Source of the DNA: Streptomyces sp. Mut1
GTDB taxonomy: Bacteria; Actinomycetota; Actinomycetes; Streptomycetales; Streptomycetaceae
Direction of reading: 5' to 3'
Assembly: GCF_030719295.1 (NCBI RefSeq)
Contig: NZ_CP120997.1
Span: forward strand, 6,210,001-6,274,000
Length of the DNA: 64,000 nt
The position numbers were made by a program, and so were the translations under genes. Of the stretch, positions 10,102 to 45,817 are shown piece after piece (positions within the stretch are counted from its first letter, which is position 1; the number at the start of each line of letters is the position of its first letter). The notes under the pieces are model-generated. The model made no database searches. It worked only from the letters and a program-made list of their open reading frames with translations, and had not been told where the DNA came from.

Positions 10102-11160
10102 GTGTCCGCAAACAAGATCCAGCACAAGGTGAATCACGTCGCGCTGGTCGTGGACTGTTCGGGTTCGATGTACCAGCACCAGGGGCAGCTCGTGCGCGTC
10201 GTGGACGAGTTCGTGGCCGGCCTGAAGGCCGAGTCGGACAGCCTCGGGCACGAGACCCGGATCAGCCTCTACTCCTTCGACCACAGGGTGGAGAACCTGG
10301 TCTGGGACATGGACGTGAAGCATCTCCCTTCCATGCGCGGCCTGTACAAGGTGAACAACGGCGCGACGGCCCTCATCGAGGCCTCCCTGAAGTCCCTCGA
10401 CGACCTGGGCCACATCTGGGAGGAGTACGGCGAGCACAGCTTCCTCCAGATCGTGGTGACGGACGGCGAGGAGAACGCCTCCGGCGGCGACCGCAGGCAC
10501 GACGGGGACATGAAGATCCTCGGCCCCTGGCTCGACCGCATCGCGGCGAAGATGGGCGCCCTCCCGGGCCACTGGACCTCGGCGATCCTCGTCCCCAACT
10601 CCCTGGCCAAGCGCACCGCTCAGAACTACGGCTTCCCGGCCGGCAACATCGCGATCTGGGACGCCGATTCGAAGGAGGGCGTCGAGGAGGCGATCGGCAC
10701 CGTGCGCGCCGCCGCCACCAGCTTCCTGCGCGGCCGTGAGCAGGGCGTGCGCGGCACGAAGAACCTCTTCGCGGTGGGCCAGGACATATCCGTGGACGAC
10801 GTGCGGGCCAGTCTCGAACCGGTCCCGGCCGACAAGTACCGGCTCCTGAAGGTCGACAAGGAGGTCGAGATCCGCCCCTTCGTCGACTCCCACCCGGGCG
10901 TGACGTACGAACGCGGCTCCTGCTACTACCAGTTGGGCGCCCGGGTCCAGGTGCAGCCGGACAAGGAGGTCATCGTCGTGGAGAAGGACACCGACCGCGC
11001 CTACTCGGGCGACGCCGCCCGCAACCTGCTCTTCGGCTCGGGCGTGCGGGGCACCGTCTCCGTGAAGGCGGGGAACAACCCCGATCTGGAGGTGTACGTG
11101 CAGAGCCGCTCGGTCAACCGGAAGCTCAAGCCGAAGACCCGTCTGCTGATCATGCTCTGA
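10102..11160 (+). CDS. von Willebrand factor A domain protein
   Basis: Predicted soluble 352-residue protein. The vWA domain carries the metal-ion-dependent adhesion motif DCSGSM (about residues 18-23), and VVTDGEEN follows near residue 125. The second half (about 220-352) is a beta-rich region with no family I can name. GTG start at 10102 is fixed by AAGGAG at 10091-10096; the in-frame GTG at 10075 is poorer. No signal peptide or membrane segment, so it is probably cytosolic. vWA proteins mediate metal-dependent protein contacts, often with AAA+ ATPases, but none is nearby. Role unknown. Confidence 0.85.
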   Translation: MSANKIQHKVNHVALVVDCSGSMYQHQGQLVRVVDEFVAGLKAESDSLGHETRISLYSFDHRVENLVWDMDVKHLPSMRGLYKVNNGATALIEASLKSLDDLGHIWEEYGEHSFLQIVVTDGEENASGGDRRHDGDMKILGPWLDRIAAKMGALPGHWTSAILVPNSLAKRTAQNYGFPAGNIAIWDADSKEGVEEAIGTVRAAATSFLRGREQGVRGTKNLFAVGQDISVDDVRASLEPVPADKYRLLKVDKEVEIRPFVDSHPGVTYERGSCYYQLGARVQVQPDKEVIVVEKDTDRAYSGDAARNLLFGSGVRGTVSVKAGNNPDLEVYVQSRSVNRKLKPKTRLLIML

Positions 11161-11210
11161 CCACCCCGGCCCCCGGCCCCGGGGAAGGGGGGCGCTCCCG
11201 GGCGCGGGAC

Positions 11211-11282: not shown

Positions 11283-12656
11283 GTGACCCCCGAACCCCCC
11301 GAGCCCCCGCTCCCACCTGCAGTGACCGTGGTCGGGATCGGAGCCGACGGCTGGGCGGGCCTGTCCGGGGCGGCGCGCGCGGAGCTGGAGGCCGCCCAGG
11401 TCCTGATCGGCGCCGGACGCCAGCTGGACCTGCTCCCGCCCCGGTGCGCGGGCCGCCGCGTGCCCTGGCCCTCCCCGCTGCGCCCCGCCGTCCCCGGCCT
11501 GCTCGCCGCGCACGCGGCCGGCCGCACCGCCGTACTGGCCAGCGGCGACCCGATGTTCTACGGGATCGGCCGCGCCCTCACCGAAGTCCTGGGCGCCGGG
11601 CGGCTGCGCGTCCTGCCGCACCCCTCGTCCGTCTCCTACGCCTGCGCCCGCGTCGGCTGGCCGCTGGAGGACACCGAGGTCGTCACCCTGGTCGGCCGCC
11701 CCGCCGCCCGGCTCGCCGCCGCCCTGCACGAAGGACGCCGGCTGCTGGTCCTCAGCGCCGACGCCACCACCCCGGCCGAGGTCGCCGCCCTGCTGCGCGA
11801 CCGCGGCTTCGGCCCCAGCCCGATGCGGGTGCTGGAACAGCTCGGCGGCGAGGGCGAGGCGTGCGTCCAGGGCACGGCGCAGACCTGGTCCCACCCGGCG
11901 GGCGACCCGCTCAACGTCATCGCCGTCGAGTGCCGCAGGGCCCCCGGCGCCCCGCGCCTCGGCGCCGTACCGGGCCTGCCCGACGAGGCGTACGCGCACG
12001 ACGGCCAGCTCACCAAGCGGCACGTGCGGGCCGCCACCCTCGGCGTGCTCGCCCCCGCACCCGGTGAACTCCTGTGGGACATCGGCGGCGGCTCCGGATC
12101 GATCGCCATCGAGTGGATGCGCACCCACCCCTCCTGCCGGGCCGTCACCGTCGAACGCGACCCGGTGAGGGCGGCCCGCATCGCGGACAACGCCGACCGG
12201 CTCGGCGTCCCCGGCCTGCGCGTCGTCACCGGCCGCGCCCCCGACTGCCTGGCCGGGCTCCCCGCCCCCGACGCCGTGTTCATCGGCGGCGGACTCACCG
12301 CGCCCGGCCTCCTCGACACCTGCCTGCGGGCGCTCCCGCCCGGCGGCCGGCTGGTCGCCAACACCGTCACGCTGGAGTCCGAGGCGGTCCTCGCCGCCCA
12401 GCACCGCGAGCACGGCGGCGACTTGGTCCGCCTCGCCGTGGCCCACGCCGTGCCGGTCGGCACCTTCACCGGCTGGCGCCAGGCGATGCCGGTCACCCAA
12501 TGGTCCGTACGCAAGCCCGGGACCTGTCCGGCGGATCTTCGCGGGCCCACGACGCCTGGCACGCACTCTCGCCGCACGCCCGAATCACCCGAGTACGTCC
12601 AGTACGAGGGCGATCCGGGCGCACGCCGAGAGCACGCACCGGACGCCGCGGGCTGA
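11283..12656 (+). CDS. cobL: Precorrin-6Y C5,15-methyltransferase (decarboxylating), CbiE-CbiT fusion
   Basis: Cobalamin ring enzyme that methylates C5 and C15 of precorrin-6B and removes the C12 acetate carboxyl. The N-terminal CbiE-like tetrapyrrole methylase (VVGIGADGWAGL, ASGDPMFYGIG) occupies about residues 12-215. The C-terminal CbiT-like methyltransferase has the SAM motif DIGGGSGSIAIEW near residue 265. Normal homology ends near TQWSVRKP (about residue 411). The last ~46 residues are encoded by an inserted palindromic repeat that removed the original stop, so the 457-residue length is inflated by a non-native tail. GTG start at 11283. It precedes cobM on the same strand. Confidence 0.93.
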   Translation: MTPEPPEPPLPPAVTVVGIGADGWAGLSGAARAELEAAQVLIGAGRQLDLLPPRCAGRRVPWPSPLRPAVPGLLAAHAAGRTAVLASGDPMFYGIGRALTEVLGAGRLRVLPHPSSVSYACARVGWPLEDTEVVTLVGRPAARLAAALHEGRRLLVLSADATTPAEVAALLRDRGFGPSPMRVLEQLGGEGEACVQGTAQTWSHPAGDPLNVIAVECRRAPGAPRLGAVPGLPDEAYAHDGQLTKRHVRAATLGVLAPAPGELLWDIGGGSGSIAIEWMRTHPSCRAVTVERDPVRAARIADNADRLGVPGLRVVTGRAPDCLAGLPAPDAVFIGGGLTAPGLLDTCLRALPPGGRLVANTVTLESEAVLAAQHREHGGDLVRLAVAHAVPVGTFTGWRQAMPVTQWSVRKPGTCPADLRGPTTPGTHSRRTPESPEYVQYEGDPGARREHAPDAAG

Positions 12657-36181: not shown

Positions 36182-37600
36182 TCAGCAGCTGACGCGGCCC
36201 CGGCGCAGCGCGTGGCCGCCGTCGTTGGCGTCGTCGGACCAGTAGACGGGCTTGGACCCGGCGACGCACTCGTCGGCACCGGCAAGGGCGAAGCCCTCGT
36301 TGTTGTAGTTGGGCATGCCGGTCGGGCGGTTGTACGCGGCGACGGTGGTGAAGGCGCCGGTCGTGTCGACCTTCAGGGTGGTGTGCCGGCCGTCGCAGGT
36401 GTCGTCGCAGACCGCCCACAGGCGCGATGCCTGCGGCTCCCACTGGAGTTCCATCACGCCGGGCATGCCGCTGCTGAAGGAGGCGACGCGGGTGTACGAG
36501 CCGGAGTCGGCCAGGACGTAGCCGTGGACCATGCCGGTGCCCTCGACGCCGACGAAGAACACCCCGCCGCTGTGGGCGCCGTAGCGGGAGGGGTCGTACG
36601 CGGACCCGGTTGAGGCGTCCTTGAAGCCGGCGCCGGTCAGCGAGGCGTCCGGGACCCAGGTGATCGCTTCGAGGCCGAGGTTGGAGCCGGTCGAGGGCAG
36701 GTCGGAGGTGAGGTTCCATTCCTTGGCGGCGGTCAGCGAGGAGCCCGATCCGCCGACGTCGTACTTGAGTACCGACAGGCGGCTGGTGCCGGAGGCGTCC
36801 CCGTTGCGCTCGCTGGCGACGAAGACCCCGCCGCCGGTCGCGGTGACCCCCTCACTGTCGGGGGAGCCGGAACCGCCGGGGAAGCGCAGCGTCCTACCGG
36901 AGGACCAGCCGTTCGCGATGTCCGGCTTCCAGCCCCCGGAGCCGTCCCGCACCAGGCGCCACAGCTTGCCGCTGTTCTGCGCCGCCCACAGCACATCGCC
37001 CTCCTGGTACAGGCCGCTGAGGTCCTCGCCGAACACGTTGGAGCCGTCCGCGGTGGCCACGTCGCCGCTCCCGGGCCATGCCACGGGCGTCGTGGAGCCC
37101 CCGCCCCCACACGCGTTCGGACCGTCGAGGGTCACCGAGCCCGCCTGCTCGAAGGTGCCGGTGCCGTCGGGGCAGCGCGACCAGGACGGGCCCGAGTGCT
37201 TGCTCCAGGAAAAGCCGTCGACCTGTGTCTTGCCGTCCGCGAGATACAGCCGCGCCTCGTCGTCGGAGCCCAGCCCAAACGCGCCGCTGACATCGAAGGC
37301 CCGGAACCCGCCGGGTGCCAGCGTGGTCCCGGAAGCGATCTTGTACGCGTGGTCCTTGTCGTCGTCCCTGAGCACCCATCCCGAGACGTCGACCGCGGCG
37401 CCGCCCTTGTTGTACAGCTCGATGGAGTCGCTGACGCCGCCGTTGGTCACCACCTCGTTGATGCGCACGTCGTCCGCCCCGGCCGCGTGCGCCGCCGGCG
37501 CACCGGTCAGCCCGCAGGCGGCCAGCAGGGGCGCGGCAACGAGAATGCGGGCAAGAGCACGGGGCCGCCGACGGGCAGTCGATGCAGTCACGGAATCCAT
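36182..37600 (-). CDS. Secreted lamin-tail-domain protein with beta-propeller-like region
   Basis: 472-residue exported protein. The signal peptide (ALARILVAAPLLAACGLTGAPAAHAAG) contains LAAC but the cleavage looks like an ordinary AHA-A type site. A lamin-tail domain follows (about 40-155: VRINEVVTNGGVSDSIELYNKGGAAVDVSGWVLRDDD). The rest is a repeat-rich beta region resembling esterase-like phytase or propeller proteins (GLYQEGDVLWAAQNSGKLW; LQWEPQASRLWAVCDDTCDG). It ends NDGGHALRRGRVSC. ATG at 37600; the frame extends to 37723. Function unknown; such domain pairs often occur with nucleases or phosphatases. Confidence 0.8.
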   Translation of the reverse strand: MDSVTASTARRRPRALARILVAAPLLAACGLTGAPAAHAAGADDVRINEVVTNGGVSDSIELYNKGGAAVDVSGWVLRDDDKDHAYKIASGTTLAPGGFRAFDVSGAFGLGSDDEARLYLADGKTQVDGFSWSKHSGPSWSRCPDGTGTFEQAGSVTLDGPNACGGGGSTTPVAWPGSGDVATADGSNVFGEDLSGLYQEGDVLWAAQNSGKLWRLVRDGSGGWKPDIANGWSSGRTLRFPGGSGSPDSEGVTATGGGVFVASERNGDASGTSRLSVLKYDVGGSGSSLTAAKEWNLTSDLPSTGSNLGLEAITWVPDASLTGAGFKDASTGSAYDPSRYGAHSGGVFFVGVEGTGMVHGYVLADSGSYTRVASFSSGMPGVMELQWEPQASRLWAVCDDTCDGRHTTLKVDTTGAFTTVAAYNRPTGMPNYNNEGFALAGADECVAGSKPVYWSDDANDGGHALRRGRVSC

Positions 37601-37726
37601 CCTGAGATCGTCACGGACAAGCCGGCCCGACGCTCCCGCCCCGGACCGAACGGGGCGCCGTTCCCCAGGAAGACTTCCCACGAACGGCGCGCGAATTCTG
37701 CGCGCGGCCCGCCCGCCGCTCACCCC

Positions 37727-38563
37727 TCAGATCCGCAGCGCCTTCAGCAGGGCTTCGCCGAACTCGCGGGGATGCGTGGTCAGTCCGATGTGCCCACCGG
37801 GGAAGGACCGGAGTTCCGTGCCGAGCCGCTCGGCCAGCGCGGCGGTCGCACGGTGCGGCAGCTCGCCGGGTGAGTCCTGCCCGCCGGCGAGCACGAGCCG
37901 GTCCGCGGACTCCTTCAGCCGGCGGATGTCCGGGGCGTAGGACATGAAGGCGGGCACGATCCGCCCGACGAAGTACGGCAGTCCGGCCATCGTCTGTTCG
38001 GCCCGCGCCGCTGCCCGGGGCGGGACCTCGGGCTCGGCCTTCGGCTCGACGGTGTCGCCGCCCTTCGCCAGGCCCGCGGCGAACACGGCCATCGCCGGCA
38101 TGAGCCCTTCGGCATGGAAGGTTTCCCGCACCCGCGCGAGGAGAGCGCGGTGTTCGGCCGCGTCCGGCAGCACCTCCACCACGGGCGGCTCGTGCACCAC
38201 GACGCGTGTCAGGCGTTCGGGACGCGCGGTGAGGAGATGCAGCGCGGCAATGGCGCCCGAACTGGCGCCGAACACGCGGGCGGGCTCACCGGGCGACACG
38301 AGTTCCAGCATCCGGAACGCGTCGTCGGCGTGCTCGGCCACGTGCTGCGCGGCTTCGGGGTCGTCCAGCGTGCTGCGCGCCATGCCACGTGGGTCGTAGG
38401 TCACGACCGTGTACGCGGCGGCCAGGTCGTCGGCGACGCCGTCGAAGGAGGCCGCGCCCCCGGTCCCACCGGGAATCAGCAGCAGGACCGGCCCCTGGCC
38501 GCGCACTTCGTAGTGCAGGTTCGCGCCGCTCACCCGCAGGCTGCCGACGGTCGGATCACTCAT
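37727..38563 (-). CDS. Alpha/beta hydrolase
   Basis: 278-residue hydrolase. Oxyanion-hole region LLLIPGGTGGAASFDGVADDL, then YDPRGMARS, nucleophile elbow GASSGAIAAL (Ser near residue 100), and the C-terminal His in FPGGHIGLTTHP (about 257). Start ATG 38563 is fixed by AAGGAG; the longer frame to 38659 runs through a C-rich repeat and is not real. Substrate unknown. Its promoter region carries paired CTAGG palindromes, so expression is probably repressor-controlled, though no regulator gene is adjacent. Confidence 0.88.
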   Translation of the reverse strand: MSDPTVGSLRVSGANLHYEVRGQGPVLLLIPGGTGGAASFDGVADDLAAAYTVVTYDPRGMARSTLDDPEAAQHVAEHADDAFRMLELVSPGEPARVFGASSGAIAALHLLTARPERLTRVVVHEPPVVEVLPDAAEHRALLARVRETFHAEGLMPAMAVFAAGLAKGGDTVEPKAEPEVPPRAAARAEQTMAGLPYFVGRIVPAFMSYAPDIRRLKESADRLVLAGGQDSPGELPHRATAALAERLGTELRSFPGGHIGLTTHPREFGEALLKALRI

Positions 38564-38572
38564 GAGGAGTCT

Positions 38573-38640
38573 CCTTGACGGGACGGGACGGGATGGGATG
38601 GGACGGGACAGGGCCGGGGCCGGGCCGGGACTCCGGGACA
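38573..38640 (+). repeat. G-run repeat in the hydrolase leader (G-quadruplex potential)
   Basis: Successive GGGAC/GGGAT units followed by GGGCC runs on the plus strand, more than six GGG runs with 2-3-base spacing. The hydrolase is read from the other strand, so the G-rich strand is its template. Confidence 0.8.
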
Positions 38641-38677
38641 TGGCTGCGCAGGGCATCAAATGCCCGGCACGGCCCTG

Positions 38678-38715
38678 AAACCTAGGACCTCTAGGTTTAA
38701 CCTAGGACCCCTAGG
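38678..38715. promoter_or_regulatory. Twin CTAGG palindromes upstream of the hydrolase
   Basis: AAACCTAG-n5-CTAGGTTT (38678-38698, perfect) is followed directly by CCTAG-n5-CTAGG (38701-38715). The paired arrangement with the same spacer (GACCT/GACCC) is characteristic of a repressor operator, for example of the MarR, PadR or TetR type. It also marks the exact left edge of the RHS remnant. Confidence 0.7.
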
Positions 38716-40019
38716 AAAGCAACGGCGAAGTCTCCGCGCCCGATGCCGCTTCCGCTGGGTTCGGCTACAAGACTGTCGCCTTCGACAAACCCGGCGGCAA
38801 CGTTCTGGGCAAGACCGTCAGCCGGCCATGGTTCCGCCAGACGGGGAAGAAGGTCAGAGACTGGGGGACCGCCACCTCCAACTTCAACGGCACCGCTTCC
38901 ACCAAGACCTGGACGTCCCTGGACCAGGGTGCAGGCAAGAAGTGGCGCACGACGTCGACCTCCTTCAAGCAGGACCTTGTCGCCGGCCGAGTCATCGAAA
39001 GCGACGACTTCGGTGACGATTCGACGGCGGCGGACGACCAGTGCACCCGCACCACCTTCGCGGAGGACCCGACGGCAACGATCCTCAGTCTCCCGACACG
39101 GGTCGAGACCGTCGCGAAGTCCTGCAGCGCGCCCGTGGACCGTTCCAAGGATGTACTGACCGATGTCCGCTCGGCCTACGACAAGGCCGACTACGGTGTG
39201 GCGCCCAAAAGGGGCGACGCAACAGCCACGGCAGCGCTGAAGAGCCACGACGGCACGAAGGCGACGTACCTCGAAGCCGGAGCCACATTCGACGTCTACG
39301 GCCGCCAGCTGACCGCGACCGACCTGACCGCCAACGTGACGGTCATCGGCGACGAAGCCCCTGTCCGCACCGCACGTAGCGACGGCCGCATCACCACGAC
39401 CGCCTACACCCCCACGACCGGCTTCGCCGCGCAGACGAAGGTGACCACGCCGCCTGCCAAGGCGTCCGACGCAACGACGGCCCAGGTCACCACCACGGAC
39501 ATCGATCCGGCACGGGGAGCCGTTGCCAAGCAGACCGACACGAACAACAACGTCACCGAGTACGCGCACGACGCACTGGGACGCACCACCAAGATCTGGG
39601 CTGCTGATCGCCGCAACACGCAGACTCCCACCCAGGAGTACGTCTACACGATCGTTGAGAACAAGCCGGTTGTGATCGCGACGAAGTCGCTCAACAACAC
39701 CGGTGGACAGATCACGTCCTACCAATTGCTCGACGGATTCCTGAGAGAGCGCCGGACCCAGGCCCCCGGGCCCGACGGCGGCAACACCACGGAACTGCGC
39801 CAGCTGCACAGCCGTTCCGCTGACGCCGCCTACGACAGCACCACCTACCACTACACACCGCGCAACGAACTGGACAAGGTCACCGACCCCGCCGGAAACC
39901 ACTGGACGTACGCATACGACCAGCCCGGCCGGCAGATCTCAACGACCGACCCCGACCAGGGCACCACGGACACCACCTACGACGACCGCGGCCAGGTATT
40001 CACGCCTACTACGTGCTAG
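38715..40019 (+). pseudogene. RHS/YD-repeat polymorphic toxin core, truncated at both ends
   Basis: An open frame without a start codon runs from the operator edge at 38715 to a stop at 40019 (about 434 codons). It encodes typical RHS core sequence: GFGYKTVAFDKPGGN, ESDDFGDDSTAADDQCTRTTF, YAHDALGRTTKIW, YHYTPRNELDKVTDPAGN and YDQPGRQISTTDPDQGTTDTTYDDRGQV. The N-terminal secretion and plug region and most YD repeats are missing. After GQV the sequence jumps to the toxin-side motif HAYYVLAG in a different frame and the RHS frame ends at TTC-stop. It is a deletion remnant of a much larger toxin gene. Confidence 0.85.
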
Positions 40020-40393
40020 CGGGTGCTACGCCGGTACTCGTCCATAATTCCACATGTACTCGATACGGTGGCGCTCTTGCGGCCGCTGAGGCAGCAAATC
40101 CATTGATCGAGAGTCTCCGCGCTACGGGTAAGTTGCCCAACAATTATGTGACCAAGGAAGCGGCCGGCGCCTTTGGCTGGAAAGCTGGAAAGGAGCTTGG
40201 GAACCACCTGCCCGGCGCTCAAATCGTTGGAAACATCTACGAAAACTCCAACGGGCGGCTGCCGAGTGCTGGTGGGCGGACTTGGTATGAGGCCGACGTG
40301 GGCCTGACCAACACGATGAAGCGGTCTAAGCAACCGGGGACGCGGTTGGTCTATTCGAGCGATGGGCTCGCTTACGTAACCAGCGACCACTAA
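40004..40393 (+). pseudogene. Barnase-type ribonuclease toxin tip, cut off from its RHS carrier
   Basis: The frame reads HAYYVLAGATPVLVHNSTC, the conserved junction before C-terminal toxins, then a barnase-like nuclease. LPNNYVTKEAAGAFGW, GNIYENSNGRLPSAGGRTWYEAD and LVYSSDGLAYVTSDH align with barnase LPDNYITKSEAQALGW, GRTWREAD and TTDH. The catalytic Glu (in WYEAD) and His (final residue) are kept. The protein stops right at that His, lacking barnase's last eight residues. The frame differs from the upstream RHS core, and the GTG at 40013 has no ribosome site, so expression is doubtful. A perfect palindrome ATAAAAGCTTTTAT follows the stop at 40393-40406. Confidence 0.85.
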
Positions 40394-40433
40394 TAAAAGC
40401 TTTTATCAGTTGCCTAACTGGAGATGAGGGTGT

Positions 40434-40724
40434 ATGAGGATCGAAATTGACGGCGCAGCAATCCGCTCCGAGGCGGATCTGCACGAGTTCCTTTCGAGGG
40501 CCCTTGATTTCGGCCCTTACTATGGGGCCAACCTGGATGCTTTGTGGGATCGGCTGTCGACGGACGTTGAGCGTCCCGTCGATGTAATCTGGAGGGAGGC
40601 GGATTTCAGTAGGAGAGTGCTAGGGGAATCCGAGTTCGCGAAGATTCGTGACCTTCTGCTGCGTGTGCAATCGCAGGATGAGTCCATCGGATGGCCCGAC
40701 CGTTTCACGGTGACATTCGCGTAG
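40434..40724 (+). CDS. Barstar-family immunity protein
   Basis: 96-residue inhibitor of barnase-type RNases. MRIEIDGAAIRSEADLHEFLSRALDFGPYYGANLDALWDRL matches barstar's IRSISDLHQTLKKEL..YYGENLDALWDCL, including the Asp/Trp residues that plug the RNase active site. ATG at 40434 with GGAGATGAGG upstream. It lies 40 bases after the toxin tip and should protect the cell from it. Codon use is less GC-rich than the surrounding chromosome. A strong terminator follows. Confidence 0.93.
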   Translation: MRIEIDGAAIRSEADLHEFLSRALDFGPYYGANLDALWDRLSTDVERPVDVIWREADFSRRVLGESEFAKIRDLLLRVQSQDESIGWPDRFTVTFA

Positions 40725-40731
40725 CGGGCCG

Positions 40732-40774
40732 GGAGCCCTGCCGAGACGTACTTCGGTAGGGCTCCTGCTGTTTT
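40732..40774 (+). terminator. Rho-independent terminator after barstar
   Basis: GGAGCCCTGCCGA and its complement TCGGTAGGGCTCC (one G-T pair) followed by TGCTGTTTT. Classical hairpin plus T-run, unusual for Streptomyces and consistent with an imported cassette. Confidence 0.88.
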
Positions 40775-40799
40775 ATAACTACGTAAGTGGTCGGGCACA

Positions 40800-41180
40800 A
40801 AGGGGTTTGTGGGCGGCATCGATGACACTTCGATCACCGGTCTGATTCACCTAGGAGGGCGGGAATATGATCCAGAGGTCGGTCGATTCCTCTCGGCGGA
40901 TCCCCTCCTCAATCTGACAAAGCCGCAATCGCTTAACGGGTACTCCTATGCGGAGAACAATGCGGTGACGTTCTCTGACCCCACGGGTCAGGCGAGCACC
41001 TGCTCGTCGAACTGTGGCGGAGAGCTTCTATTCAAGGAGTCACACGCTGCGCCCGACTTCAACACAGGAGAGACGTGGGAGGAAAAGTACCCGTGGGAAA
41101 CATCTAATTATGACTACTACGCAGAAGATGGGATGTACTGGGCGATCGATCCGTCTGGCCTATATACATTCCGTCCGTGA
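40800..41180 (+). pseudogene. Second RHS C-terminal tip (displaced cassette)
   Basis: KGFVGGIDDTSITGLIHLGGREYDPEVGRFLSADPLLNL is the conserved RHS C-terminal repeat, and NGYSYAENNAVTFSDPTGQ is the usual hinge before the variable toxin. The variable part is only about 63 residues (ASTCSSNCGGELLF...IDPSGLYTFRP) and matches no toxin I know. There is no start codon with a ribosome site; it is a 3' fragment following the terminator of the barnase-barstar module, so it is a displaced tip awaiting recombination or a relic. Confidence 0.8.
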
Positions 41181-41249
41181 CACCGATTTGATGTAGCGGG
41201 GTGTGCCCTTGATATTATCGGGTGCACCCCGCTTGTATATTGCAGAAAT

Positions 41250-42047
41250 ATGGTGATGAAAGTGGTTGAATTGGAGAATCTTCTCCTAGTCGCGCGTCGC
41301 GTGCTGGATGGAATGAGGAAAGGGAGTGCTGCCGCTGCAAATGAAATGCGCCGCATGATTCCGGAGCTTCAGCGTGCGGCAGACTCGGGTGATTCTGAAT
41401 TTCAGGAATTGATTGGCGGCATCGCTCTTGAATACCTTAAGGACTATGGGACTGCGTATTACTACTTGCGTGCAGCCGCTGAATCGGGCAACGCCTCGGC
41501 TCAACGCGGTCTGGCCTTTATGTTGTTCGAAGGTCTTGGTGTGCAGAAGGACAAGCGGAAGGCGGTGAAGCTTTTTGAGGCTGCCGCGGAATCGGGGGAT
41601 CGGGCGGCTAAGTTCAACCTGGCTGGAGTATTGCTTCGCGGCGATGATGCAACCAGAGATGAGGAAAGGGCTGTCAGGCTTTTGCGGGAAGCGTCGGATG
41701 CCGGGATGGATGCGGCTTCGCGGCAGTTGGGAGAAATTGCGCTCGCGGAGAATGATTACTTTGAGGCTAGGAAAGTCTTGAGTTTGGCCGTTGGGCAGGG
41801 CTCGTATCGCGCGCTAATGAATTTGGGTATGATGTGTCGTGACGGAATTGGGGGTGACGTGGACCGGGTGCAGGCGTTGACTTGTTTTCTGAAGCTTTTG
41901 GATGTGGGAGACGGGGATGGTCTTCACGAGGCACATGCGATGGTGCCAGAAATGACAGATCAAGAAGTCAAGGAAGCGGCTCTAAAAGCTGGGCGGGTGA
42001 GCGAGGGTGGTGTCCTCATTGGCAACCGCAGGAAGTACAGCTACTGA
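41250..42047 (+). CDS. Sel1-repeat protein, candidate immunity protein of the second tip
   Basis: 265 residues of helical Sel1/TPR-like repeats (YYYLRAAAESGNASAQRGLAFMLFEGLGV, KLFEAAAESGDRAAKFNLAGVLLRGDD, RLLREASDAGMDAASRQLG). Such proteins recur as immunity or accessory proteins directly after RHS toxin tips, and this gene lies 69 bases after one. Codon use is markedly AT-richer than its surroundings, consistent with acquisition. ATG at 41250 or 41256; no good ribosome site. The last codon and the stop TGA come from the end of an IS630 element inserted at the original TAA stop, adding a single Tyr. Confidence 0.8.
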   Translation: MVMKVVELENLLLVARRVLDGMRKGSAAAANEMRRMIPELQRAADSGDSEFQELIGGIALEYLKDYGTAYYYLRAAAESGNASAQRGLAFMLFEGLGVQKDKRKAVKLFEAAAESGDRAAKFNLAGVLLRGDDATRDEERAVRLLREASDAGMDAASRQLGEIALAENDYFEARKVLSLAVGQGSYRALMNLGMMCRDGIGGDVDRVQALTCFLKLLDVGDGDGLHEAHAMVPEMTDQEVKEAALKAGRVSEGGVLIGNRRKYSY

Positions 42048-43208
42048 GGTTGAACTCGTGATGTCGTGTCGTTGCTCAGGTGGGTCGGATGGTCAGGCCC
42101 GTCTCGGTGAGGCAGCCGTCGAGGAGGTGGCTGCGGTACTGGATGTGCCGTAGGCCGCGCCGGACGGTCTGGGCGAGGTGTTCGGGGGTGCTGAAGGCGA
42201 CGTTGGAGAGCCGGCCGCGTCGCAGGAGCGACCAGATCCCTTCGACGGGGTTGAGGTCGGGGGCATAGGGCGGCAGGTAGTAGATGGTCAGCCAGTCCCG
42301 GGCCTCGGCGAACTCCCGCAGGCCGGCGGCCTTGCGCACGTTGAGGTTGTCCCAGATGAGTACGATCGGGCCGTCGAGCTGCTGGTGGGCTGCGATCAGC
42401 AGGTCCCGGTAGTCGCGCCAGGAGAAGCTCTTGCGACCGTCACGGTCGCCGTCGTCGCGACGGAGCCGGTAAATCAGCCTGGACCGATGGTCGGGTTTGT
42501 AGCAGGTCAGCGCGGCGATCGATATCCGTCTGCGAGAACGGCCTCGGACTCGCACCACCCGAGTCCGGCCGCGCCGGGACCAGGTCTTCGCCTGCGACGG
42601 CGTCATGGAGAAGCCCGCTTCGTCCTCGAAGACCAGCCAGGCTCCACGGGCCGCCGCTAGCCTTCCGCGCAGGGCCACACCTCCTTGACCCACCCGGCCA
42701 CCGCATCGTCGTCTCTCTCCATGGCGCGGCGGGCCGGGACCTGGCACGACCAGCCGTTACGCACCAACAGCTTGCGTACGCCCTGGATCGTGTACGTGAG
42801 ATGGAAACGACGGCCGATCACCGTCTTCACACGGCCCAGAGTCCAGCGCTGGTCCTCCCAGCCATGCGCGGCCGGCCCCTTGGCCAATTCCGCCTCAAGC
42901 TGAGCGAACTGCTTCTCGTTCAGCCTCGGCAGCGACGCTGGACCCTGCGACCGCAGGGACCGCGGACCGCCCCCGGCCCACGCATGACGCCATCGCTGGA
43001 CCGAGCGCACACTGACCCGAAGATCCCTGGCAATCGCCGTACTGCCCTCGCCCCGAGCGAACCGCTCTGCTGCCCGGAGCCGTAACTCCTCGCGGGACTG
43101 CTGCCGTTCGGCGGTCAGCCCGCCCCCTTGTGGATACCGCATACCTCCGGTGATACCGCAGCCATCGGCCAGACGTCACCCCCTACGACACCACCAGTTC
43201 AATCTCAG
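42044..43208. mobile_element. IS630-family insertion sequence, 1165 bp
   Basis: Terminal inverted repeats at 42044-42067 and 43185-43208 match at 21 of 24 bases (outer bases CTGAG.TTGAACT). Both ends are flanked by TA (42042-42043 and 43209-43210), the TA target duplication that defines IS630/Tc1-type elements. It contains one transposase in two overlapping frames on the minus strand. Confidence 0.92.
42076..43142 (-). CDS. IS630-family transposase (two frames, -1 frameshift near 42675)
   Basis: The first frame (43142-42657) has helix-turn-helix regions (RFARGEGSTAIARDLRVSVRSVQRWRHAW; WTLGRVKTVIGRRFHLTYTIQGVRKLL). The second (ending 42076) has the DDE catalytic triad: VFEDEAGFSM, IVLIWDNLNVRK and LPPYAPDLNPVEGIWSLLRRG. 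The protein becomes continuous (VKEVWP to LRGRLAAARGAW) with a -1 shift around GTGTGGCCCTGCGC. Many IS630 members are made by programmed frameshifting, but a disabling mutation is equally possible. Confidence 0.88.
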
Positions 43209-43430
43209 TAACTCACTCTCCACGAAACCCGGGGCTTGGCACTTCGGCATGTGCTGGTGAACCGCCTAGCGGCTGGTCGCTCAGAAGACGTTCCCGTGTC
43301 CCACAGTTCGAATTGGCTGGCACCACCGAGTGCGAACCGTGGTTCTTCTCAGTGTTCTGGGCATTGAGGAGCGCCCGGTCTTCGCTGACGGGGTTGCGCT
43401 CACTCTCTTCGAAGACTGACCTCACCCTCG

Positions 43431-43460
43431 CCGTGCCGGCATTCGCGAATGCCGGCACGG
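43431..43460. promoter_or_regulatory. Perfect 30-bp palindrome upstream of the effector-like gene
   Basis: Arms CCGTGCCGGCATTCG and CGAATGCCGGCACGG are exact complements with no loop. It may be a terminator, an operator or a mobile-element end. It contains the ATG at 43449 that opens the longest downstream frame, making that start doubtful. Confidence 0.8.
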
Positions 43461-44549
43461 CCCCTGAAACAACTTGCGAAGGAGTCTGTTCATGCCTACC
43501 TGCCTCGCCATTTGCGGGACGTCGATCACCCTCACTCCTACGGCGACTCCCTCTCAGAGGCTCAATACCGGCCTACCGCTCTGTACGAGGAAATCGTGCG
43601 GCCTGCGTGCGAACGGCTCGGCCTGACATTCCTGCGAGCGGATGAACTCGCGGGGGCAGGCCTGCCCAGGGACCAGGTGCTGCGGTTGTTCGCCGAGGCG
43701 GATGTCGTCATTGCGACTCTCGACGGGCCGGATGCGGAGCTCTCCTTCGGGCTGGGGATGCGCCACGCTCTCGGTCGGCGCACGGTTCATGTCGTGGACG
43801 GAACCAGCCACTTCGCGGGCTTTGGAACGATGCACCGTATGTCGGTGTCTTCGCTTCGCGGTGATGCCGACAGCGCTCGCCAGCAACTGATCGATGTACT
43901 GGCGGAGGAGACGCAGCGCGCAAGAGCTGCCTCCGCACTGCCGACGACGGCGGTTGCCCGGCACAGTCCGGGGGTGACAGAGGAAGACACCGGGGATGGT
44001 CCCGGACTTTTCGATCTCATTGTCGAAGCCGAGAGCCAGATGGAAGCACTTGGTAGCAACGTGGCAGACGTGGAAGCTGCCATCACCGACCTTGGTGAGG
44101 TGACTGGAGTAGTCATGGAGGACATGGCTCGTGTCAGCCATCCCGGAGCGTCGATGAGCGCCAGGATGGCTGTCTTGAACCGGTTGGCCAAGGCCATTGA
44201 TGGGCCGGTAGAGGACTTGGAGGTTGCGGCCGAGCGCTTCGCGGAGCGTATGGGGGTCAGCTTCGCCGCATTCAAGGCATTCCTGGAATGGGCGTCCAGC
44301 ACGCCGCGTTCCGAATGGCCGGACGACGCAGAGGAGCTGTTGGACCAGGTGGCGACAGCTGATTGGGACGTGCAGAGTACAGCTGCTTCCTTCCAGGAAG
44401 GGATGGCGCTGATCAATGCGCTGGGCGTCGCCAGCCGTAATCTGCGCAGCCCGAGCCGCCGTATCATCCAGTCCTTTCAGACCATTTTTCAGAGCACGGC
44501 CGTAGTGGCTGAGCTGCAGGCAATGGCTGCGGCCCTGAAGGAATCCTGA
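43449..44549 (+). CDS. Deoxyribosyltransferase/TIR-like domain protein with helical C-terminal part; start region disturbed
   Basis: Residues about 40-120 (YRPTALYEEIVRPACERLGLTFLRADEL, VLRLFAEADVVIATLDGPDAELSFGLGMRHALGRRTVHVVDG) show the alpha/beta pattern of nucleoside 2-deoxyribosyltransferase- or TIR-like domains, which occur in bacterial stress and defence proteins. About 170-366 is largely helical. The open frame starts at ATG 43449 inside a perfect palindrome. A better start, ATG 43492 after AAGGAG, reads MPTCLAICG in another frame, as family N termini often do. A frameshift near 43510-43540 is therefore suspected. Whether it is functional is unclear; it lies in the conflict island. 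Confidence 0.6.
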   Translation: MPARPLKQLAKESVHAYLPRHLRDVDHPHSYGDSLSEAQYRPTALYEEIVRPACERLGLTFLRADELAGAGLPRDQVLRLFAEADVVIATLDGPDAELSFGLGMRHALGRRTVHVVDGTSHFAGFGTMHRMSVSSLRGDADSARQQLIDVLAEETQRARAASALPTTAVARHSPGVTEEDTGDGPGLFDLIVEAESQMEALGSNVADVEAAITDLGEVTGVVMEDMARVSHPGASMSARMAVLNRLAKAIDGPVEDLEVAAERFAERMGVSFAAFKAFLEWASSTPRSEWPDDAEELLDQVATADWDVQSTAASFQEGMALINALGVASRNLRSPSRRIIQSFQTIFQSTAVVAELQAMAAALKES

Positions 44550-44620
44550 GCTCCAACGATCCCAAGGCCGCGTCGGGGCCGTCAGGGCGGTTTGTCCTGG
44601 CGGTCCTCGACCCCTCGTGG

Positions 44621-45298
44621 TCAGTTGACGTCCGGATCGTCTGCCTCTTCGAGCAGGCGCGCCGCGAGGTCATCGGCCCACTCCAGGGCCCAGGTACGAA
44701 GAGCGGTGATGGTGGCGTCATCGAGTCCGTACGCGGCGAAGGCCTCGTCGTCGGTCCACTCCGCGCCAGTGAGATTCGCCTGCAGGTCCTCGCGCTCGAA
44801 GCGGCCACGGGCGTGGCGCCGGCCGAAGTCCTCAAGATCCGCGTTGGACCAGCGGCGGGAGGCCGCGAACACGTCGATCAGATCGCGCGGCGCCCCCCGG
44901 TCGCCGAGGGCACGGACCTTCGTCCCGATCACGTCCTCCTCAGCGAGGACGGGCCCGTACCGGCTCTGCGATACCGGCCGCGAAAAGATCTCCTTGAGGA
45001 TGTCGACCTCGCAATCCTGACCGGTCGCAGGGTCGGTCACCGTGAAGCGGGCGGACAACGGGGCGGTCTCAAGCGCCTGCACCTGCCAGCCCCGGGATTC
45101 CAGGCCGGCACACAGCGTGGTCGCGATCGCGGCCATGGGCGCCGGATTCTCGGTGGCGACATCGAGGTCCTGGCTCGGCCGGCTCACCAGGCGGTGTGCC
45201 CGGACGGCGTATCCGCCGGTGAGGACGAGCGGATACGGAGAGCCCAGCGCGATCACGTCCGCCAGAAGCCGAGTGTGCAGCTCCGGCATGTCCGTCAC
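44621..45298 (-). CDS. AbiEii-type nucleotidyltransferase (type IV toxin-like)
   Basis: 225 residues. The nucleotidyltransferase motif is VLTGGYAVRAHRLVSRPSQDLDVA, with the paired Asp residues for metal binding, followed by VDILKEIFSRPV and GTKVRALGDRGAPRDLIDVFAA, as in AbiEii/AbiGii toxins and related phage-resistance proteins. GTG at 45298 overlaps the upstream stop (GTGA); ATG 45289 is the alternative. The coupled upstream gene is the likely partner. No AbiEi-type winged-helix antitoxin is recognisable, so classification rests on the enzyme alone. Confidence 0.82.
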   Translation of the reverse strand: MTDMPELHTRLLADVIALGSPYPLVLTGGYAVRAHRLVSRPSQDLDVATENPAPMAAIATTLCAGLESRGWQVQALETAPLSARFTVTDPATGQDCEVDILKEIFSRPVSQSRYGPVLAEEDVIGTKVRALGDRGAPRDLIDVFAASRRWSNADLEDFGRRHARGRFEREDLQANLTGAEWTDDEAFAAYGLDDATITALRTWALEWADDLAARLLEEADDPDVN

Positions 45299-45687
45299 GC
45301 GGCTGTCCGGGCGCGGGACGCGAGCTGAGGGAAGGAGTCTTCCCATACGGAGCGCACGGTGCGGCCGACGAGGGTGCGGAGTACCGGCCACATCTGAAGG
45401 AGCAGATCCCGGTTGATGTACTTCGCGAGGTCGTCGCGCAGACCCTCGTGCAGGACCGTGCGGTACAGCCCCATGCGTTGGCGGGGCTTGCCCATGTCGT
45501 ACGAGGTCATCCCCGACCAGGCCACATGCGACGGCAACTGCACGACCCCCCGCACCGGGCCGTGCAACTCGTCCAGCGTCTCGGGCAGACGTCGCCGGAA
45601 CTTCTCCCGGTACAGGGCGAGATCCTCGGCGTCCGCGCCCGCGAGCCTGCTGGGCGTCGACGCGGGGGACTGTGGGTCGGTGGGCAT
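45295..45687 (-). CDS. Small protein coupled to the AbiEii-type gene
   Basis: 130 residues, soluble and probably helical, with LPSHVAWSGMTSYDMGKPRQRMGLYRTVLHEGLRDDLAKYINRDLLLQMWPVLRTLVG. I do not recognise a named family. Its stop overlaps the start of the nucleotidyltransferase by four bases, the usual order of antitoxin then toxin, so it is the candidate antitoxin or regulator. ATG at 45687. Confidence 0.7.
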   Translation of the reverse strand: MPTDPQSPASTPSRLAGADAEDLALYREKFRRRLPETLDELHGPVRGVVQLPSHVAWSGMTSYDMGKPRQRMGLYRTVLHEGLRDDLAKYINRDLLLQMWPVLRTLVGRTVRSVWEDSFPQLASRARTAA

Positions 45688-45817
45688 GCGTCCATTATGG
45701 CGTCCGGAGAGCGGCAGTGGCCGAAAGGCTCACGGCGCCGACCCGCAATCGCGCCGAGTCCTGGCCGACCGCCGCGCGCCCCTGGCCCGCTGGGCAGCGC
45801 GCGGCAGCCCCCGCCCC

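Follow-up and report, generated by a model that had tools for sequence, protein, structure and literature searches.

The locus considered here raises the question of whether a short C-terminal tip of an RHS protein, followed by a Sel1-repeat gene, constitutes a second toxin with its own immunity protein, or is what remains of one. The window, i.e., the whole stretch of 64,000 nucleotides that was analyzed, covers positions 6210001-6274000 of contig C1 in the 7.99 Mb genome of Streptomyces sp. Mut1 (G000). From position 38715 onward, the order along the plus strand is an RHS fragment, the end of a HINT domain with a barnase-like tip (tip 1), a barstar gene, a hairpin, an RHS core end with a second tip (tip 2; together, cassette 2), the Sel1 gene and an IS630-type element. 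We favor, with a probability of roughly 0.6, the interpretation of an RHS toxin locus that has eroded while its immunity genes were retained, in which cassette 2 would have lost its HINT domain and nearly all of its toxin, and the Sel1 protein would act as stand-alone immunity against an incoming deaminase.

Organization of the locus

Using profile searches, we recovered the elements that a preliminary description had listed in this part of the window, namely an RHS segment, a tip running from CSSNCGG to SGLYTFRP and a Sel1 gene, all placed after a barstar gene and a terminator-like hairpin (TIGR03696, PF08238 and PF01337; Table 1). By the family E-values, the features of the locus go beyond chance. 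PADLOC gave no match at the locus, and a promoter scan found no promoter-like site there. The GC content is 0.585 in tip 1, 0.574 in the barstar gene, 0.552 in cassette 2 and 0.550 in the Sel1 gene, versus 0.707 for the whole window.

Table 1. Features of the RHS locus, in window coordinates.
Feature	Coordinates	Strand	Evidence and remarks
RHS mid-gene fragment (YD repeats), pseudogene lacking N-terminus and core end	38715..40000	+	PF05593 E 5.4e-7; TIGR01643; blastn to L061
Pretoxin-HINT end and barnase-like tip 1	39998..40393	+	PF00545 E 8.4e-7; frame differs from that of the RHS fragment
Barstar-like immunity gene	40434..40724	+	PF01337 E 3.2e-19
Terminator-like hairpin 3' of barstar	40730..40767	+	16 pairs, T-rich tail
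Cassette 2, orphan RHS core-end segment	40785..40988	+	TIGR03696 E 6.4e-16
Pre-HINT linker (STCSSNCGG...WEEKYP)	40989..41093	+	Aligned with L069
Remainder of tip 2	41094..41180	+	Stop at 41178-41180; final 16 residues (41130-41177) similar to the C-terminus of SsdA-like deaminases
GC-rich hairpin in the gap from tip 2 to Sel1	41196..41232	+	Fold z -4.55; 0/200 shuffles as stable
Sel1-repeat protein, proposed orphan immunity	41250..42047	+	PF08238 E 4.7e-22; start may be 41256
IS630-type element ending the Sel1 frame	42044..43208	-	DDE_3 and IS630 models; inverted repeats 86% complementary; TA at both flanks

The upstream RHS gene and the first cassette

The RHS fragment sits in a stop-bounded frame, 38715-40019. 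At the corresponding site, another genome of the same species (G155, locus L061) has a single uninterrupted RHS reading frame (2,289 codons), which ends in a PT-HINT domain (PF07591, E 5e-21) and a different tip; the site also holds a 1,431-codon gene that we read from its sequence as LamG-type. In a blastn comparison, window positions 36500-38742, 38741-39783 and 39778-39997 matched L061 positions 671-2886, 10150-11192 and 11490-11709, respectively, at 95-98% identity, such that about 7.3 kb (7,260 bp) and about 0.3 kb (300 bp) of the G155 sequence that lie between these pieces are absent from the window. Another 2.4 kb or so are missing at a third place, straight up to the end of the HINT domain (L061 14141), which the window continues in another frame. 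It should be noted that the G155 site is split across two contigs, the second of which matches the window from 45809 onward; the comparison therefore stops at 40003 and resumes at 45809, with 40003-45809 outside its reach. Judged from this alignment, the upstream RHS gene has suffered several deletions and is a pseudogene. Thus, of the upstream "core, tip 1" of the preliminary description, the RHS sequence is there, but an intact core is not, only the fragment from 38715 to about 40000 with tip 1 in a different frame. Elsewhere in the window's own genome, contig C1 carries three further long open RHS-type frames, near 4802883, 2044294 and 2705368 (2,657, 1,784 and 1,501 codons, respectively).

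The segment IHAYYVLAG..PVLVHNS ahead of tip 1 matches the HINT ends of L061 (80% over 20 aa) and of the RHS locus L069 of another genome, G213 (86% over 21 aa). Tip 1 and its neighbor have the ribonuclease domain and the barstar fold of a barnase/barstar pair. The terminator-like hairpin behind the barstar gene comes from a scan that found 2 sites, compared to 1.6 expected from shuffles.

The second cassette

The stop-bounded frame 40779-41180 consists of an RHS-associated core end with LIHLGGREYDPEVGRFLSADP, followed by the tip. It starts within the conserved RHS core and crosses the DPxG boundary, as is typical of an orphan Rhs C-terminal cassette, and the immunity-type gene that follows completes the orphan layout that had been proposed for this region. 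As to the further statement that the segment starts without a start codon, its frame does contain an in-frame GTG at 40809. The core has 51% identity over 70 aa (78% over 60 bp of DNA) with another RHS frame of its own genome, and core and linker together have 59% identity over 105 alignment columns with the G213 RHS protein.

The preliminary description also had the core repeated ahead of the second tip, a layout expected to allow exchange of tips by homologous recombination. Within 38700-41250, a single direct repeat of at least 20 nt is present, and both of its copies are in the first fragment; a blastp comparison of the two segments gave E 1.2. With no DNA repeat shared between the second core segment and the upstream RHS sequence, itself a deleted pseudogene, tip exchange within the locus is not supported. 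We rejected this candidate for lack of a shared repeat. Compared to the G155 RHS gene, the cassette 2 core is 69% identical over 131 bp of DNA (66% over 67 aa), versus the 522 bp at 95% of the worked Salmonella case (PMC3967940).

Tip 2 comprises 63 residues past DPTG. In their first approximately 35 positions, these correspond to the pre-HINT linker of a G213 RHS protein that is encoded by a long open frame; there, a HINT domain (PF07591, E 4e-23) and an Ntox43 toxin domain (PF15537, E 9e-14) come after the linker (TCSGSSCG...WESTYP). In the window, only about 28 residues remain after the linker before the frame ends, and the HINT and toxin domains are missing. No toxin family was found in tip 2 by Pfam, NCBIfam or PADLOC, and with regard to an SsdA-like (BaDTF2) deaminase domain, tip 2 has no match to PF24120 and neither the HAE nor the CxxC motif. 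Judging by these searches, a recognizable toxin domain is absent, and tip 2 is most likely a stub that lost its active part.

The reading of tip 2 as an alternative toxin, in this case a genuine but very short novel one with the Sel1 protein as its partner, would be consistent with a frame that is open to a clean stop with the Sel1 gene close behind it, and with an end that was found nowhere else: a search of 392 genomes of the genus at E 0.01 matched only two, the window's own and G213, the latter in the linker only. However, the linker is common to a protein that continues into HINT and Ntox43, the residues left are few and match no family, and the near-identical protein P0032 of Streptomyces sp. 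NPDC057509, one of four relatives of the frame in the protein database, exits the same frame within the tip, after GETWEE. By eye, P0032 departs where the window reads GMY-WAID, and this fits a junction at that point. We consider a toxin of this kind very unlikely, and rejected it as a candidate because of the shared linker and the shortness of the stub. An AlphaFold model of tip 2 had a pLDDT of 39.9; with 4 sequences available the RHS part was modeled equally unconfidently, hence the model decides nothing.

The stub would be explained as follows. Cassette 2 would originally have been an orphan RHS C-terminal cassette of the usual order, i.e., core end, linker, HINT domain and toxin, then the immunity gene. 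An internal deletion may have taken out the HINT domain together with almost the entire toxin. What remained would be the core end and the linker, probably along with the final 12-16 residues of an SsdA-like cytosine deaminase (DYW/BaDTF2 type). The hairpin in the gap and the intact Sel1 gene would have been kept downstream of the deletion.

Similarity of the tip 2 tail to deaminase C-termini

The last 16 residues of tip 2 (GMYWAIDPSGLYTFRP) align without gaps with the C-termini of SsdA-like deaminases; compared to RSLYITDPFGVFRFDP (L093) there are 5 identities and a BLOSUM62 score of 27. On a matrix built from 11 deaminase tails the tip 2 tail scored 18.55, versus 10.67 on one built from 15 RHS core ends. 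In the first control for this score, as high a value came from none of 100,000 anchored shuffles, from 1 of 20,000 shuffles scored anywhere and from 1 of 2,718 open-frame tails (the deaminase of L100). This control drew mostly on frames that are not genes and was too easy; it was therefore repeated on real RHS proteins. Among 38,374 16-mers of RHS/HINT proteins, 13 scored at least as high as the tip 2 tail, of which 11 were the deaminase tails themselves; the other two, counted among the 38,363 remaining 16-mers, were the core end of P0033 (22.6) and an internal segment of L061. This weakens the likeness of the tail. True deaminase tails, each left out in turn, scored 25.0-50.0, all 11 above the tip 2 tail, and at E 50 a profile HMM of deaminase C-termini picked up some of the shuffles but not tip 2. 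Because of the low score compared to the true tails and the negative HMM result, the derivation of the tip 2 tail from an SsdA-like deaminase is only suggestive.

Accordingly, we weighed a variant of the erosion scenario in which the lost toxin was not SsdA-like, the Sel1 protein is directed at a different tip, and the likeness of the tail is due to chance or to a second RHS core-end motif (DPSGL). Besides the HMM result, this variant draws on the DP-S/T-G that RHS core ends also carry, one of them outscoring the tail. Against it, the tail scores higher on the deaminase matrix than on that of the core ends, and it is located at the extreme C-terminus, just before the gap hairpin. The remaining evidence on this variant, which overall appears unlikely to us, comes from the relatives of the Sel1 gene.

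The Sel1 gene and its relatives

The Sel1 protein is predicted to form a 15-helix alpha-solenoid (pLDDT 94.2, pTM 0.85), and the best Foldseek matches of this model are Sel1-repeat proteins, as are the matches of a PDB sequence search; both the repeats and the modeled fold thus place it among the Sel1-repeat proteins. Relatives were detected in 18 of 392 genomes of the genus (E 1e-10) and in 15 of 394 genomes of the family, the window's own genome included in both counts. In 9 of 32 Sel1 loci (a count that omits second Sel1 matches in G244 and G285, one Bacteroidales locus and 264 of 265 plasmid records), an SsdA-like RHS deaminase is encoded directly upstream of the Sel1 relative. The deaminase frame is open to its end in L038, L042, L043, L068, L090 and L093, and broken near the end in L050, L092 and L097. 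Four of these nine loci were used to build the HMM that found them, and the other five are new finds; in the remaining 23 loci, no such deaminase was present within the stretch fetched. One locus is on a plasmid of Streptomyces melanogenes, where the Sel1 relative is preceded by a gene annotated as a "polymorphic toxin-type HINT domain-containing protein", such that relatives occupy the position of an immunity gene, directly downstream of the cognate toxin, in the nine loci and on the plasmid; in the window, the toxin is missing.

All four tips beside Sel1 relatives that were scanned match SsdA_C (PF24120; E 1e-8 to 5e-10), and CxxC is present in the six open deaminase C-termini examined. One Sel1-linked tip was compared to the PDB and matched SsdA (E 8e-15). 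In a tree of 37 Sel1 rows, the deaminase-linked rows occur at three places. Given these relatives just downstream of SsdA-like deaminases at three places in the tree, an orphan immunity gene is the best, and a likely, interpretation of the Sel1 gene. The proposal of the preliminary description that the Sel1 protein provides immunity is thereby supported by the gene order in relatives. That this would be unusual was partly right: immunity proteins with Sel1 repeats are already described, in the excerpts available, for Klebsiella VgrG4 (PMC7108748) and for PldB/Tle5b (PMC13133936).

Could the Sel1 protein be an unrelated housekeeping Sel1/TPR protein that is found here by accident? Sel1 repeats are common protein-interaction modules, and the tree contains a clade of 12 rows without a deaminase in the stretches fetched. 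However, the window protein falls outside this clade, its gene lies just after the end of an RHS cassette and shares the low GC content of the cassette, and relatives at three other places in the tree follow RHS toxins. An accidental neighbor is thus highly improbable.

The window Sel1 groups with P0001, P0002 and P0003 (support 100/100), its closest relatives being P0002 of Streptomyces sp. NBC_01022 (74%) and P0003 (48%). This clade is distinct, and the partner of the window Sel1 may therefore be another toxin, in line with the variant in which the lost toxin was not SsdA-like. The same variant is favored by locus L041, in which an RHS toxin of another type is followed by a Sel1 relative with one gene between, but SsdA-like deaminases are the recurrent partner of the Sel1 family in the loci examined. 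Returning to the deaminase reading, we conclude from these neighborhoods that the Sel1 protein probably protects against an SsdA-like deaminase toxin. If expressed, its alpha-solenoid would most likely bind the incoming deaminase tip of a neighboring Streptomyces, as stand-alone immunity.

A search for the deaminase across the genus (E 1e-6) yielded 4 of 392 genomes, and Sel1 adjoins the deaminase in 3 of the 4. The fourth, G209, has a deaminase without Sel1, with no Sel1 match in the genome search and none among the downstream frames. No deaminase of this kind was above the threshold in the window's own genome; the same search also missed G285, a tip of which matches PF24120, so the silence on G000 is no proof of absence. 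Two of the three loci with broken deaminases, L092 and L097, have an internal stop in Sel1 as well, which speaks against the immunity gene always outliving its toxin.

Several neighboring arrangements were observed in addition. In L041 (5595-7310), the RHS toxin is followed by a 179-codon frame and then, about 1 kb downstream, by the Sel1 relative, possibly a multi-immunity locus. In L089 (G846), the Sel1 relative lies 4.8 kb downstream of the gene for an RHS/HINT protein whose deaminase-like end (FCRSCG...) is of a different kind. The SsdA-like tip of L100 (G209) is part of a 1,266-codon frame without an RHS core motif or a Sel1 neighbor.

The gap hairpin and the insertion element

We compared the 100 nt after the toxin stop in the window and in the six relatives with open toxin ends (n=7) to control gene ends, a set in which some of these toxin genes may recur. 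By a folding measure, an uninterrupted helix of 12-18 bp is present in 7/7 toxin-Sel1 gaps, and of at least 13 bp in 5/7; among the controls, 30 of 279 gene ends reach at least 13 bp, and 11 of 101 when the next gene is on the same strand. A stricter stem measure gave at least 12 bp in 2/7 gaps versus 25 of 280 control ends. At most, the helices suggest that the toxin gene and the Sel1 gene are transcribed as units of their own, and that what the window preserves is the native 3' side of a toxin-Sel1 pair.

The IS630-type element, inserted at TA, provides the last residue (Y) and the stop codon of the Sel1 frame; its exact ends are our reading of the TA-flanked inverted repeats. A copy with 89% identity is located on contig C20 of G155.

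Comparison to known systems

The literature in this section is cited from the available excerpts of the sources. In Salmonella LT2, the orphan Rhs-CT has a toxic tip, and over 522 bp it is 95% identical to the main rhs gene, which is intact (PMC3967940). The window resembles this orphan Rhs-CT/RhsI arrangement in having a displaced core fragment, the DPxG boundary and a linked downstream immunity gene. It differs in its main gene, a pseudogene in which no repeat in common with the orphan segment was detected, and in its tip, from which the toxin seems to have been lost; in particular, no long near-identical stretch is shared with the window's own fragment, the G155 RHS gene or another RHS frame of the same genome. 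In Serratia marcescens Db10, protection by the orphan Rhs immunity protein 2280 was shown; Rhs1 is intact there, and the toxin concerned is an NADase (PMC10539506). Similar to the window, 2280 is encoded by an immunity gene without a toxin at an rhs locus, and it matches an immunity gene that is paired with a toxin in another strain; unlike the window protein, 2280 is not described as Sel1 in the excerpt.

The tips beside Sel1 relatives match both the SsdA_C family and the solved SsdA, the immunity protein of which, SsdAI, is described as exclusively alpha-helical (PMC7901873; PDB 7jtu), whereas the Streptomyces toxins are RHS proteins. The SsdA immunity chain was neither among the 23 PDB matches of the Sel1 protein nor among the best 60 of its 110 profile matches. 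Sel1E (PMC7108748) and Tli5b (PMC13133936) are also Sel1-repeat immunity proteins, but they act against the T6SS effectors VgrG4 and PldB, not deaminases. Zhang et al. (2012) list Imm5 with DYW deaminases, and mention Sel1 in other roles (PMC3482391). We found no description of Sel1 immunity against a deaminase in the open-licence literature searched. Thus, Sel1 immunity and orphan Rhs immunity are already known, and the pairing of Sel1 with SsdA-like toxins was not found in that literature.

Implications

Sel1 solenoids may be a so far unrecorded type of immunity against the mutagenic, SsdA-like deaminase tips of Streptomyces RHS toxins, with the strain keeping Sel1 and barstar as an immunity-only RHS locus after the loss of the toxin gene; we put the odds of this at about even. 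The locus also illustrates that "tip" remnants can be mistaken for new toxins from sequence alone. If the proposed role is true, the Sel1 relatives would be a candidate family of inhibitors of SsdA-like DNA deaminases, an enzyme class now studied for base editing, according to the available part of the source (PMC11789416), and the locus would be a Streptomyces example of immunity genes surviving their RHS toxin.
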